Part shown: positions 6,525-18,826 of the stretch, one piece after another
Position numbering within the stretch: position 1 is the stretch's first letter
Layout of the letters: each line of letters starts with the position of its first letter
Assembly (NCBI GenBank): GCA_028279445.1
Contig: JANQNT010000021.1
Coordinates: forward strand, 1 to 64,000
Direction: 5' to 3'
DNA: 64,000 nucleotides
Source of the DNA: Tepidamorphaceae bacterium
Lineage (GTDB): Bacteria; Pseudomonadota; Alphaproteobacteria; Rhizobiales; Tepidamorphaceae
The notes under the pieces: model-generated
Told to the model about the DNA's origin: nothing
Seen by the model: the letters and a program-made list of their open reading frames with translations, nothing else
Database searches by the model: none
Position numbers and translations under genes: made by a program

Positions 6525-8429
6525 TCAGCGGTCCTGTCGCGGCGCGGCGCCGAGAATCTCGCTCAGGAGCTGCGGATTGACATTGACGCCGTAGGTATCG
6601 CGCAGGGCGGCAACGTACTGGCCGAGCAGATCGTTGCTCTGACCGAGCGCCAGACGGTCGTAGGTCGCCAGCGTCGCGTCATCGGCTGCATCATGCGGCG
6701 GTGTCGCGGCGCCGGTCATGACGAAGATGACCCGGTTCTCGGCGTTGTCGGCCTCGGCGAAGGCCGCCTCGCCCTGACGCAGCAGGAACAGCCGCTGCAC
6801 GGCGACAGCGCCGACCGGACCGGAGGTTTCGGCGCGCGTGATGGCGCCGACGCTGGTCACGCTGCGATCGAAGCGCGATGCAACGACTGTGATCGAATCG
6901 CCGGATTTCAGGCTATCGACGGCTTCCGCCGCGGTGCGGTCGAGCGCCCCGTCGATCTGTCCGGCCCGCCATGCCGCCACGACGTCGTCGCGCACCTCGT
7001 CGAGTGTACGTTCGCGTGCCGGCTCGATGCCCTGCACGTCGTACCAGATGAACACCGAACCGCGTAGCTGCAACGGATCGTTCTCGATCCCCACGTCACT
7101 CTGGAATGCCTCCCGCAGGATGCTGTCGCGCGCCGGCATAGCGGTCACCGGTGCGCCTTCCGGATCGTTGCCACGCGCATCGACCGCCGGGAAGATCTGG
7201 AGGGTCAGCCCCTTGGCGGTGGCGATCTCAGGCAGCGTCTCACCCGCCGCACGGGCATCCTCGATCTCGTCGTAAAGGTCGAGGACACGGTCTTCGCCGC
7301 GGCGGCGCTGGATGTCGGCGACAAGCGCGTCGCGGACATCCTCGAAGGCGGACTCAGAGCCCGCCTCGATGGCGGTCACGCTCACCAGCACGTTGCCGAA
7401 CTGACCCGCGATGACATCGCTGACGGCGCCTTCCTCAAGCGCGAAGGCCGCTTCGGCCACAGCCGGGTCCAGAATGTCCGCCCGGGCGACGGAGCCAAGC
7501 AAGGTCTCTTCCGGGCTCAGGCCGCGGGCCTCGGCGATGTCCTCGAAGCTCGCACCGGCACGGATCTGCTCCAGTGCTGCCTGCGCCTCAACCGCTTCGG
7601 CGAAGACGATCTGCTGCACGCTGCGCCGTTCCGGCACCTCGTAGCGGGCCTTGTCCTGCTCGTAGCGTTCGCGGGCTTCCTGCTCGCTGACCTCGATGGC
7701 GCTGCCGATGATCTGCGGATCGACGTTCAGCACCGCGATGGCACGGTATTCGGGCGCGGTGAACCGCGCCTTGTTGGCCTCGAAATAGGCTGTGAGCGTG
7801 GTGTCGTCGGGATCGCCCACCGGTTCCAGGCTGTCGTTGCCGATGACGAAGTAGTCCATGGACCGCGTTTCCGCGCCATAGGCATGGACCGCCTCCTGCA
7901 TGGCATCGGAGGGGGCAATGCCGGAGGTGGTGGCGTTGCCGATCACCTGGCGCAGCATCTCCAGGCGGCGATCCGCCACGAATCCGGCCTCGCTCATGCC
8001 GGTGGCGCGCAGCACCTGCTCGAAGTAGGCGCGGTCGAAAATGCCGCCGGGGGTGAGGAAACTCGGATCGGTGCGGATGGAATCGGCAATCGCCGCATCC
8101 GACATGCCAAGCCCCAGTTCGCGCGCCTTCTCGTTCAGGGCCGCTTCGGTGATCATGCGGCCGAGCACCTGGGCATCGATGCCCAGCGCGCGGGCCTCGT
8201 CGAGCGTCAGCGGACGGCCGATGCGCCGACCCACAAGCTGCATCTCGCCCTGCAACTCGTTACGGAAGACCTCGCCATGGATCTCGGTCTCGCCGACGGT
8301 GGCCAGCGCATCGCCGCGATAGCCGGTGAAGATGTCGGAGACACCCCAGACCGCAAAGCTGAACATAAGGACGCCAAGAAATATCTTGGTCACCCAGCTT
8401 CCCATGCTGCGCCGTAACGCATCCAACAT
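6525..8429 (-). CDS. ppiD: PpiD/SurA-type peptidyl-prolyl isomerase, membrane anchored
   Basis: Periplasmic folding factor held in the inner membrane. About 634 residues from MLDALRRSMGSWVTK, the typical PpiD start; the preceding in-frame extension to 8810 crosses the promoter region and is rejected. One transmembrane segment (about 15-30, FLGVLMFSFAVWGV), a SurA-like N-terminal chaperone region (about 30-200), a PpiC-type rotamase domain around 250-360, and a second degenerate parvulin-like C-terminal region. A ribosome binding site (GGAGAGG) lies about 13 nt upstream. First gene of the trp-mo operon and divergent from tpiA. Confidence 0.92.
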   Translation of the reverse strand: MLDALRRSMGSWVTKIFLGVLMFSFAVWGVSDIFTGYRGDALATVGETEIHGEVFRNELQGEMQLVGRRIGRPLTLDEARALGIDAQVLGRMITEAALNEKARELGLGMSDAAIADSIRTDPSFLTPGGIFDRAYFEQVLRATGMSEAGFVADRRLEMLRQVIGNATTSGIAPSDAMQEAVHAYGAETRSMDYFVIGNDSLEPVGDPDDTTLTAYFEANKARFTAPEYRAIAVLNVDPQIIGSAIEVSEQEARERYEQDKARYEVPERRSVQQIVFAEAVEAQAALEQIRAGASFEDIAEARGLSPEETLLGSVARADILDPAVAEAAFALEEGAVSDVIAGQFGNVLVSVTAIEAGSESAFEDVRDALVADIQRRRGEDRVLDLYDEIEDARAAGETLPEIATAKGLTLQIFPAVDARGNDPEGAPVTAMPARDSILREAFQSDVGIENDPLQLRGSVFIWYDVQGIEPARERTLDEVRDDVVAAWRAGQIDGALDRTAAEAVDSLKSGDSITVVASRFDRSVTSVGAITRAETSGPVGAVAVQRLFLLRQGEAAFAEADNAENRVIFVMTGAATPPHDAADDATLATYDRLALGQSNDLLGQYVAALRDTYGVNVNPQLLSEILGAAPRQDR

Positions 8430-12655: not shown

Positions 12656-13483
12656 ATGTCCAACACCGTCTCCGTCGGGGGCGTTTCGTTTGCCAATGAC
12701 ACGCCGTTCTCGCTGATCGCGGGGCCGTGCGCGCTGGAATCGCGCGACCACGCGCTCGATATCGCCTCCACGCTGAAGGAACTGACCGGCGAACTCGGCA
12801 TCGGCTTCGTCTTCAAGGCCTCCTTCGACAAGGCCAACCGCACCAGCCTCAAGGGCGCGCGCGGCGCGGGGCTGGACGCCGCGATGACCGTGTTCGCCGA
12901 GATCAAGGCGCGCCTCGACGTGCCGGTGACCACCGACGTGCACCTGCCCGAACACTGCGGTGAAGTGGCCGATGTGGTCGATCTGATCCAGATCCCCGCC
13001 TTCCTGTGCCGCCAGACGGACCTGTTGCTGGCCGCCGCTGCCACCGGCCGGCCGGTCAACATCAAGAAGGGTCAGTTTCTCGCGCCCTGGGACATGGCCA
13101 ACGTGGTCGCCAAGATCACCGACAGCGGCAACCCGGACGTGATCGTCACCGAGCGCGGCTCCAGCTTCGGCTACAACACGCTGGTGACGGATTTCCGCAG
13201 CCTTCCGCAGATGGCGGACAACGGCACGCCGGTGGTGTTCGACGCCACCCACTCGGTGCAGCAGCCGGGCGGACGCGGCGGCTCGTCGGGCGGCCAGCGC
13301 GAATTCGTGCCGGTGCTGGCGCGCGCGGCAGTCGCGGTCGGCGTGGCTGGTGTGTTCATCGAGACCCATGAGGACCCGGACAACGCTCCGTCGGACGGTC
13401 CCAACATGGTGCCGCTGGCGGATATGCGCGCCCTGCTGGAAACGCTGATGGCGTTCGACAAGGTCACCAAACGATCTTCTTAG
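12656..13483 (+). CDS. kdsA: 3-deoxy-8-phosphooctulonate synthase, metal-dependent type
   Basis: Condenses arabinose 5-phosphate with phosphoenolpyruvate to Kdo-8-phosphate for lipopolysaccharide. 275 residues from [15 protein letters not shown]; an upstream in-frame extension to 12476 lies in the VOC gene and is rejected. [10 protein letters not shown] and the C-terminal SDGPNMVPL are conserved. Residues [10 protein letters not shown] carry Cys where the metal-independent E. coli enzyme has Asn, placing this in the metal-dependent class. Its stop overlaps the stop of the convergent DUF1835 gene by 3 nt. Confidence 0.97.
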
Positions 13484-14472
13484 GCAGGCGCAACAAGCGT
13501 TTGGGCTGCTTCATCCCAGCGCCAAGGATCGTGCCCGCATGCGTGATACCCGCCGAACCAGCAATCGATACCGTTCTCGGTGACGAAATCGGCATGTCCC
13601 TCCAGCAGATCGCGGGCGTAAGGCGTCAGCGAGACGGTGCTTCGGACGAACTCGTCATAGCCCGGTTCACCCGGCTGGTCGCTGCCCTGCGGCATGGGCG
13701 GCAGACCGTCGACCGCCGGAATGCGCGTATCCGCCATCCGGTCAAGCAGTTCGAAGAAGCCCAGATCGCCGAGGAATGCCGCCGCTTCCATCCCCTGGGT
13801 ACGGCCGAAAAGGCGCCCGGCGGTCGTTGGTTCGTCCTTGAGCAGGCTCAGCGCGTTGCGTTGCGTGCGGCCAAGCCCACAGGTCGTATCAGGGAACTCG
13901 GCAAGGAAGCGGATCAAGGCCGCGCCCAGAAAGGCAAACGGTCCCGGTTCGGCGACATAGCGGTTGGCCAGTGCTCCAAGTTCCGCGCAGTCGGAACCGC
14001 GAAACGCGTTCCATGCGGCCACCGCGCGCTCGTGCATGTCCTCCGTCACCGGCTCGGTCCTGCCGGCAAACCGCAGCACCGTGTCGGGTGTCTGATGGCC
14101 GAGATAGTCGTCCGCCTGGACGAGGAATACGCCCTTATGTCGCCCGGCACTCGCCAGCGCATCCAGCATGTCGAGAAGTTGCAACTGGTCGTAGAGGTCG
14201 TGCTCGAGCCAGATTTCGATGCGCTCGAATTGTCCGTGGTCCCGAATCAGGTTCTCGCGCTCTTCAAACTCCTGAGCGACCTCGTCACGCGGCAGTCGGG
14301 CAAACGTGGCAACTTCGCCGATCCGGTCGGCGATGAAGTCCTCGCGCCGCTCGAAATGCGCCACGCGGCCGGCATGCAACACGTCCCGCCAAGGCTGAAT
14401 CGGATCGGCAATGCCGGCTTCGTGCAACAGTCCTTGGGCGCTGTCGCCATTGGTCAGGATCAGTCTCGACAC
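13480..14472 (-). CDS. DUF1835 domain protein
   Basis: 330 residues, starting [20 protein letters not shown], the DUF1835 opening, with [16 protein letters not shown] near residue 90, another signature of that family. Function is unknown. It contains several acidic/aromatic conserved clusters but no clear catalytic triad or membrane segment, so it is probably cytoplasmic. Convergent with kdsA (3-bp overlap) and divergent from eno, so monocistronic. Confidence 0.8.
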
Positions 14473-15921: not shown

Positions 15922-16053
15922 GATTGCCGCAACGATCACACAGCCTCACAAGCGTGCGAGATCACGGCGAGTTTGCTTGCTCCGAGCCGAACTTGCGACA
16001 ATCTTGTTGCGAGCGGTGAGGTTCGCCGCATCGATATTCGCCCAACACGCAGC

Positions 16054-16073
16054 CGGCAGCAGGCCTGCTGCCG
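16054..16073. repeat. Perfect 20-bp palindrome in the bufA leader
   Basis: CGGCAGCAGGCCTGCTGCCG is a perfect palindrome ending 4 nt before the bufA ribosome binding site (AGGAG, 16078-16082). As DNA it fits a dimeric repressor site; as RNA it folds into an 8-bp stem with a 4-nt loop next to the Shine-Dalgarno. Either could control the bufferin operon. No known operator consensus is recognised. Confidence 0.6.
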
Positions 16074-16090
16074 CAACAGGAGCCTAGGAT

Positions 16091-16384
16091 ATGAACAAGA
16101 CCGTCCAAGCCGTCGCAGTCGCTGGTGCTGTCTCCGCAGCGCTTGCCATGACCGGTGTTGTCGATACCGCATCGGCCCAGGAGCGTGAGAAGTGCTATGG
16201 CGTTTCCCTGGCCGGCCAGAACGACTGCGCCGCCGGCGAAGGCACGTCCTGCGCGGGCACCTCGACCGTCGATTATCAGGGCAATGCCTGGAAGCTGGTT
16301 CCCAAGGGCACCTGCCTGACCATGGAACTGCCCGATGACCGCAAGGGTTCGCTGGAGCCGCTTGATCGCGACAACCCGGCCTGA
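16091..16384 (+). CDS. bufA: Bufferin-type RiPP precursor (DUF2282), BufA
   Basis: 97-residue precursor of a post-translationally modified copper-binding peptide. A Sec signal peptide (1-29, cleavage after TASA, before QERE) exports it to the periplasm. The mature part has exactly four cysteines at 35, 46, 54 and 75, in contexts EKCYG, QNDCA, TSCAG and KGTCL that match the bufferin-1/DUF2282 family. In described members some of these Cys become thiooxazole rings made by the MNIO enzyme. AGGAG ribosome binding site 8 nt upstream. It heads bufABCD; the next gene starts 43 nt later. Confidence 0.88.
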
Positions 16385-16426
16385 CCGGCGCGCAGCCGTT
16401 CCTGTGGTGACAGCGGGGATCACGCG

Positions 16427-17323
16427 ATGACCTGCTTTGCCGATACGCCAAGCACGATCCCGGCAGCGGCCGGGGTCGGGCTCAAGGGCCAGCATGTGGC
16501 CGACATTCTGGCCGCCGGCGAGGACGCAGATGCGCAGCCGGCGCGCTGGTTCGAGGTGCATGCGGAAAACTATATGGGCGCCGGTGGGCGCCCGCATGCC
16601 AACCTGACCGCGATTCGCGAACGCTTCCCGGTCTCCGTACACGGAGTGGGCCTGAGCATCGGCGCCGAACGTGGCCTCGATCCGGACCATGTGGCGCGCC
16701 TTGCCGAGGTCGTGAAGCGTTACGAACCGGGGCTGGTCTCCGAACACCTGGCCTGGTCGACGCACGACACCCATTACCTCAACGACCTGCTGCCCGTCCC
16801 CTACACGCAGGCGACGCTGGACCGCGTCGTGTCCCATATCGGCCACGTGCAGGACGCCTTGCAGCGGCCGATCCTGCTGGAAAACCCGTCGACCTATGTG
16901 CGCTTCGAGACCTCGACCATGAGCGAACTCGATTTTCTGGCGCAGATCGCCGAACGCTCAGGCTGCGGCCTGCTGCTGGACGTCAACAACGTCTTCGTGT
17001 CGGCGACCAATCACGGCTACAGCCCGGATGATTATCTCGACGCGTTTCCGCTCGATGCGGTGGGTGAAATCCACCTCGGCGGCCACGCCGAGGACGCCGA
17101 CGATCTGGGCGACCCGCTGCTGATCGACTCCCACGATCGCGAGGTGATCGATCCCGTCTGGACGCTCTATGAGCGCGTGGTGGCCAGGACCGGCCCCAGA
17201 CCGACCCTGATCGAGTGGGACAACGACGTGCCGGACTGGGCCACACTGGCCGACGAGGTTCGCCACGCCGCTACCGTCATCGCGCGAACCGCCGGGGAGG
17301 GAGGCGATGTCCGCGCCGCGTGA
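16427..17323 (+). CDS. bufB: MNIO-family RiPP-modifying enzyme (DUF692), BufB
   Basis: Multinuclear non-haem iron-dependent oxidase that oxidises cysteines of the BufA precursor. 298 residues, TIM-barrel family. Conserved metal/substrate motifs run in order: VHGVGLS (71-77), SEHLAW (105-110), LENPSTY (151-157), LLDVNNVF (183-190), GEIHLGGH (213-220), DSHDREV (234-240) and IEWDND (262-267). All expected His/Asp/Glu ligands appear present, so it should be active. The stop overlaps bufC by 17 nt. No signal peptide, so modification precedes export. Confidence 0.92.
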
Positions 17324-18083
17324 CGGCCTGGACGGCCGGCATGGCCAGGACGCCTTCGTCAGTGCCTTGCTGGAGCCCGAGGCGGCCGTCCCCGACGATA
17401 TCGCCCCCTTGCGCGACGGCACGCCGGCCAACAAGCGCTTCACGGTTTACCGCAACAATGTCGTCCTCAGCCTGACGGACAACCTGCGGGCGGCGTTCCC
17501 GACGGTCGCGGCACTGGTGGGCGATGCGTTCTTCAACGCCATGGCCGGCGTCTACGTGCGCGAACACCCGCCCACAACGCCGCTGATGATGGACTACGGC
17601 AGCGATTTCGCCATCTTCATCGAGGGCTTTCCGCCCTCCGCATCGGTGCCTTATCTGGCCGACATGGCGCGCCTTGAGGATGCCCGACGGCAGGCCTACC
17701 ACGCCGCCGACGCCGTACCGGCCCCACAGGCAGCGTTCCAGCGGCTGCAGGGCGCAGATGCCGAGGTGGCCCGGCTGGTGTTGCATCCGGCGGTGCGGCT
17801 GATCTCGTCGCGCTTTCCGGTCTTCTCCATCTGGCAGCGCCACCACGACGATGACGCGCGGGCGCTACCTGACGGCGGCGAAGACGTGCTCGTCGTGCGG
17901 CCGCAGCTCGACGTGGAGATGTATCTGCTGGGCGCCGGCGAGGCCCGCTTCATCGCGGCTCTCGGCCAAGGCAAGAGGCTCGGCGAAGCGGCCCGGGATG
18001 CCGGCCCGAACGATGGTTTCGATCTCGCCGCCGCAATCGCCCGATTGATCCGCGCGCAGGCAGTTTCGGCAATCGAGGTCTAG
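17307..18083 (+). CDS. bufC: BufC/HvfC family partner of the MNIO enzyme (DUF2063)
   Basis: 258 residues. The N-terminal half (about 12-110) is the DUF2063 fold formerly annotated as a putative DNA-binding domain, with [20 protein letters not shown] and the following [16 protein letters not shown] block. In MNIO clusters this protein acts with the DUF692 enzyme, probably binding the precursor. The C-terminal half is less conserved. It overlaps bufB by 17 nt and has a strong GGGGAGGGAGG ribosome binding region, so the two proteins are probably made together. Confidence 0.88.
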
Positions 18084-18173
18084 AAAACACCCGGTGGGCC
18101 GTGCGAGGCCCGCCAATCGCCTTGTCGCATCCACAAAAGCCACTTCATCGTCTCCATTGACAGGTCAAAGCGC

Positions 18174-18734
18174 ATGAACGCGATCATATCCCTCCACAAT
18201 TCGGTATTCGGCGCGCTTGAGAAGTCGGTCGCGCCCTGGCTGATGCCGAGCCTTGCGCGGCTGGTCTTCGCCGCCGTGCTGTTCCTCTATTACTGGAATG
18301 CTGCCACCACCAAGCTGGGCGAGGGCGCGCTCGGCTTCCTGTTTCCCTCCGATGGCGCCTATATCCAGATCTTCCCCAAGACCGTCGAGCAGTTGGGATA
18401 CGACACCTCGCAACTGGGTACGTTCCACTGGATTGTCGCGGTGGCGGGCACCTGGGCGGAGTTCCTGCTGCCGGTGCTGATCGTGCTGGGTCTGTTCACC
18501 CGGCTCGCCGCGCTCGGCATGATCGGCTTCGTGGTGGTGCAGAGCTGGGTCGATGTCGTCGGTCACGGGCTTGGCGACAAGGATATCGGCGCCTGGTTCG
18601 ACCGGATCCCGTCAGCGCTCATTCTCGACCAGCGCGCCTTCTGGGTGTTCGTGCTGCTCTACCTCGTGATGCGCGGCGCGGGTCCGTTGTCGATCGACGC
18701 TCTTCTCGGCAAGCGCAACACGGCGGCGCACTAG
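18174..18734 (+). CDS. bufD: DoxX family membrane protein, BufD
   Basis: 186 residues with four hydrophobic helices in the DoxX pattern (about 22-42, 85-110, 112-130 and 155-175). It follows bufC by 90 nt and is the fourth member of the described bufABCD layout, where a DoxX-like protein accompanies the RiPP genes; its biochemical role there is unclear. Its stop codon TAG is the first three bases of the dispersed repeat element at 18732. Confidence 0.85.
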   Translation: MNAIISLHNSVFGALEKSVAPWLMPSLARLVFAAVLFLYYWNAATTKLGEGALGFLFPSDGAYIQIFPKTVEQLGYDTSQLGTFHWIVAVAGTWAEFLLPVLIVLGLFTRLAALGMIGFVVVQSWVDVVGHGLGDKDIGAWFDRIPSALILDQRAFWVFVLLYLVMRGAGPLSIDALLGKRNTAAH

Positions 18735-18826
18735 ATCATCCTGCGATTTGATCGACCCAATCAAATCGCAGAGGGATGATCGCTTCTAACAGGTTAGAGC
18801 AACTTATCTGCGCCGATCCTGGCGCC
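18732..18826. repeat. Dispersed structured repeat, copy A (truncated)
   Basis: Starts TAGATCATCCTG and contains a 12-bp perfect stem (18741-18752 with 18760-18771, 7-nt loop) capped outside by ATCATC/GATGAT, followed by TTAGAGCAAC-TTATC-TGCGCC-GATCCT-GGCGC. It aligns over its whole length with copy B at 41292-41398. The stem bases differ between the copies but both stay paired. Copy A lacks the closing GTTGCTCTAA arm, so its second hairpin is incomplete. Its first three bases are the bufD stop codon. The hairpin may also end bufABCD transcription. Confidence 0.8.

Follow-up and report, generated by a model that had tools for sequence, protein, structure and literature searches.

Assignment of a four-gene operon from a Tepidamorphaceae bacterium to the Buf1-type bufferins, with candidate elements for its control

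The four genes bufA-bufB-bufC-bufD at 16091-18734, read from the forward strand of the analysed 64,000-nucleotide stretch of DNA (hereafter the window), very probably constitute a Buf1-type bufferin biosynthetic operon with a DUF2282 precursor, a reading to which we assign a probability of roughly 0.93. The operon is ordinary: it represents a further copy of a system already described rather than a new kind. It matches the published Buf1 (DUF2282) clusters in gene content, gene order, protein families, metal ligands and Cys pattern (PMC12452194), in agreement with a preliminary description of this DNA that had likened the layout to bufferin copper RiPPs. The interval given there, 16054-18734, ended at the right position, but what begins at 16054 is a palindrome of the leader, not a gene. 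The features discussed below are the following.

15936..15979, + strand: 44-bp conserved upstream element, a possible operator, from alignment to the eno-bufA gap of the sister genus
16054..16073, no strand: 20-bp perfect palindrome in the bufA leader, CGGCAGCAGGCCTGCTGCCG, from a palindrome search
16091..16384, + strand: bufA1, Buf1 bufferin precursor (DUF2282) of 97 aa, from PF10048
16427..17323, + strand: bufB, MNIO bufferin maturase, from NF050167 and mapped ligands
17307..18083, + strand: bufC, DUF2063 and RRE-like partner protein, from PF09836 and an AlphaFold2 model
18174..18734, + strand: bufD, DoxX-family membrane protein, from PF07681

Precursor, maturase and partner protein

All four Pfam families (DUF2282, MbnB_TglH_ChrH, DUF2063 and DoxX) exceeded their curated cutoffs, and chance is ruled out because the E-values were 1e-24 to 1e-106 for bufA, bufB and bufC and 4e-8 for bufD. 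The DUF2282 gene and the MNIO gene each occur in one copy in the whole genome, and the order bufABC(D) is kept in about 100 alphaproteobacterial loci.

BufA matched PF10048 with 90.5 bits (cutoff 22.4). As the preliminary description had noted, the precursor holds four Cys residues; there are exactly four in its 97 aa, at positions 35, 46, 54 and 75, giving a spacing of 11-8-21. Judged by eye, the N-terminus has Lys3, a hydrophobic stretch at about residues 5-24 and ASA at 27-29, with a putative cleavage site after ASA at about residue 29. The four Cys are invariant columns in an alignment of 36 sequences, in which the BufA core is not divergent. The expectation that the Cys spacing of this copy would be informative was not borne out: of the 108 precursors compared from related loci, a set that contains a few duplicates, 97 share the spacing 11-8-21, a further six keep it with extra Cys, and five have 11-7-21. 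Since its spacing is the commonest one, BufA adds no new variation, and with Buf1 precursors known in thousands it adds little. The predicted BufA model was moderately confident (pLDDT 75), and a fold search with it returned no meaningful match.

BufB scored 356 bits against PF05114 (MbnB_TglH_ChrH) and 382.3 bits against the NCBIfam BufB model NF050167, passing the cutoff of 310. We mapped its ligands by phmmer alignment to VcMbnB (7dz9), taking the metal ligands of the latter from PMC8888699. His91, Glu135, Asp165, Asn168, His194, Asp209, His211 and Glu238 of VcMbnB correspond to His107, Glu152, Asp185, Asn188, His216, Asp234, His236 and Glu263 of BufB, and the catalytic base Asp240 corresponds to Asp265; the counterpart of His55, His72, was assigned by the VHG motif. 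The claim that the MNIO enzyme carries all ligand motifs thus stands, with a counterpart found for every tri-iron ligand and for the catalytic Asp.

The bufC gene overlaps bufB by 17 nt (17307-17323), as first described, and the overlap is likewise 17 nt at the sister-genus locus L033. The AlphaFold2 model of BufC (pLDDT 94.7) matched chain A of the TglHI holoenzyme (8hi7_A) and the Neisseria DUF2063 protein NGO1945 (3dee) in a fold search, and more weakly MbnC (7dz9_C) and the RRE protein TbiB1. The predicted model agrees with the domain fusion described for bufferin partners (PMC12452194), in which DUF2063 is joined to an RRE-type domain. A sequence-profile search with BufC against the PDB gave no match, though the fold search succeeded.

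In Buf1, the two central Cys are reported to be modified and the outer two to be disulphide-bonded (PMC12452194). By homology, the same roles would fall to the Cys residues of the present BufA, and we infer the thiooxazole chemistry and the copper function of this copy from the literature. BufC would use its RRE-like domain to bind the BufA precursor while this is still in the cytoplasm and to present it to BufB, a multi-iron oxygenase, which would convert the central Cys46 and Cys54 to thiooxazoles. Following the published order of export, the putative Sec signal peptide would then carry the modified BufA to the periplasm, where a disulphide between Cys35 and Cys75 would form and the peptide would bind excess copper, the ligand reported in the literature. 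BufD probably assists at the membrane, as the literature on DoxX suggests. The genes, their families, the metal ligands, the invariant Cys and the predicted fold of BufC are the parts of this scheme seen here.

Ligand and product class

That this bufferin operon deals chiefly with something other than copper, be it as ligand or as stress (for example gold, cadmium or another soft metal), is a reading that we consider improbable. Relatives in Caulobacter respond to chromate and cadmium (PMC3511200), relatives known as the GIG operon respond to gold as well as copper (PMC5413113), and the present genome has a separate copper cassette on another contig, with CueR and CopA together. Against this stand the direct copper chelation, growth benefit and copper buffering reported for DUF2282 bufferins (PMC12452194), as well as the undiverged BufA core. 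That the operon makes another MNIO product (Buf2, oxazolin/EGKCG, methanobactin or pearlin) is very unlikely indeed: the enzyme family is shared and BufB has weaker matches to the HvfB (243.6, cutoff 360), MbnB (43, cutoff 325), ApyH and ChrH models, but none reaches its cutoff, and the precursor is a DUF2282 protein without EGKCG repeats that scores 19.9 bits against NF050166 for Buf2 (cutoff 60) and has four Cys, not six or twelve.

Bufferins, oxazolin, fontiphorin and gonophorin make up the captophorin class, in characterised members of which an MNIO enzyme with its PME1 partner installs 5-thiooxazole (PMC13097082). The present operon shares with this class the MNIO enzyme and the PME1 (DUF2063-RRE) partner, whereas its precursor belongs to the DUF2282 group and not to the Lys-Cys (EGKCG) or Cys-Lys groups. 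The operon CC3254-CC3257 of Caulobacter vibrioides has the same precursor, MNIO, DUF2063 and DoxX families, the four conserved Cys and a signal peptide, which in the present BufA is putative and was recognised by eye. It differs in its control, since the present genome has no NrsF and no sigma-F-like promoter was found upstream of bufA, and in its surroundings, the present operon lying between eno and ftsB.

Control region

The Caulobacter operon is controlled by sigma-F and the anti-sigma factor NrsF (PMC3511200). NrsF had no match in the present genome, which is 99.6% complete, nor in any of eight genomes of its family. It was found in 15 of 61 relatives' genomes, in several of them a few kb from the MNIO gene, and 46 of the 61 were without it. 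Upstream of bufA, the sigma-F promoter pattern GTAAC-N15-18-CGAA/CGTC had no site at up to two mismatches. From these searches, sigma-F/NrsF control of the operon appears to be absent. A search of the window for a sigma-70-type promoter found none. There was also no CueR-type box upstream of bufA by a simple pattern that likewise found none at the CopA-CueR locus, which makes this a weak test.

Two elements precede bufA. The 44-bp element at 15936-15979 aligned locally to the eno-bufA gap of L033 with a score of 57, compared with 30 for the best of 500 random pairs. It occurs once in the genome with up to three mismatches allowed, and among the other compared loci it was found solely in copies of the window and L033 loci. 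The element could be an operator; it could also be a leftover of eno 3' signals. The second element, the palindrome at 16054-16073, is the longest perfect palindrome of the window and ends 17 nt upstream of the start codon of bufA. It is unique in the genome, where the next best site has three mismatches, and was not found at L033. We tentatively suggest, while regarding it as the less probable outcome, that the operon, lacking sigma-F/NrsF control, answers to another regulator whose site would be the 44-bp element, the leader palindrome or both, and that its DoxX gene is an exchangeable module. For metal sensing in the NrsF-less relatives (46 of 61), the 44-bp element offers a concrete place to look. 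When the surroundings of 80 related loci were inspected, we recognised no adjacent regulator gene; the genes that recur there looked housekeeping- or stress-like by eye.

Upstream motifs were also seen at other loci. The motif TCACGCnnnCGTGAnGCACGGGCnCGTGAATGG lies about 100-137 nt upstream of bufA in 32 loci, mostly of Rhodobacterales (including L055, L080, L081 and L084), and scores 25-49 against a shuffled maximum of 4.9, scores that include the training sites of the matrix; it is a possible operator, with no regulator gene recognised nearby. The 44-bp element and the Rhodobacterales motif are alike by eye (CTCAC...TCACGG), but the matrix scores the window at -7.1 while shuffles reach 4.9, and because of this failure we do not claim a tie between the two. 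Elements resembling CTGTAACATTCCAGCGCTGGAACCTGTAACA occur about 240 nt upstream of bufA in L060, L093, L104 and others, TGTAAC recurring in them at intervals of about 22 nt; they resemble response-regulator boxes.

Genomic setting and the DoxX gene

The local order is kdsA, a DUF1835-like gene on the opposite strand, eno, bufABCD, ftsB (DivIC family) and pdhA. The DUF1835-like protein, encoded at 13480-14472 on the minus strand, scored 22.3 bits, just above the cutoff of 21.1. The nearest BufB outside the own genome, with 75% identity, is that of L033, a locus of the Rhodobiaceae MAG HKST-UBA55 from a sister genus. L033 has the order kdsA, eno, bufA, bufB, bufC, DoxX, ftsB and pdhA and the 44-bp element in common with the window, and differs by its DoxX subtype and by being without the 20-bp palindrome. 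The same surrounding order suggests that the place of the operon between eno and ftsB is probably older than the split of the two genera.

The fourth gene does code for a DoxX protein, as proposed, BufD scoring 34 bits against PF07681 (cutoff 23.6). Its gene is less tightly coupled to the others, with 90 nt separating it from bufC. This gap contains a GC-rich hairpin at 18093-18114, in a region whose overall folding does not exceed that of shuffled sequences (z -0.5), and the hairpin may partly separate the expression of bufD. L033 has a DoxX gene in the same place (6701-7222; PF07681, 48 bits) of another subtype. Of 102 loci with a DoxX gene, 77 fit best to the subtype of the window and 25 to that of L033, counting near-duplicates as well as copies of the window. 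In a quick FastTree tree, BufD of the window falls among 37 mostly Rhodobacterales sequences with a support of 100, whereas in a separate tree BufB is placed with that of L033 (97/82) and apart from the Rhodobacterales group (96/86). The simplest reading of this discordance is an exchange of bufD, held with moderate confidence because the tree was a quick one and one genome stands behind it. With the rest of the locus conserved, the change of DoxX subtype suggests an interchangeable fourth gene.

An Rfam search of the window gave no match. A long hairpin follows bufD at 18734-18783 (z -4.2) and represents one instance of a dispersed palindromic repeat (roughly GATCATCCTGnGATTTGATnGnnnCAATCAAATCnCAGnnnGATGATC) found three or more times in the genome, with two further copies lying at G000:C3:86628-86675 and G000:C27:161391-161438 (L138, L139).
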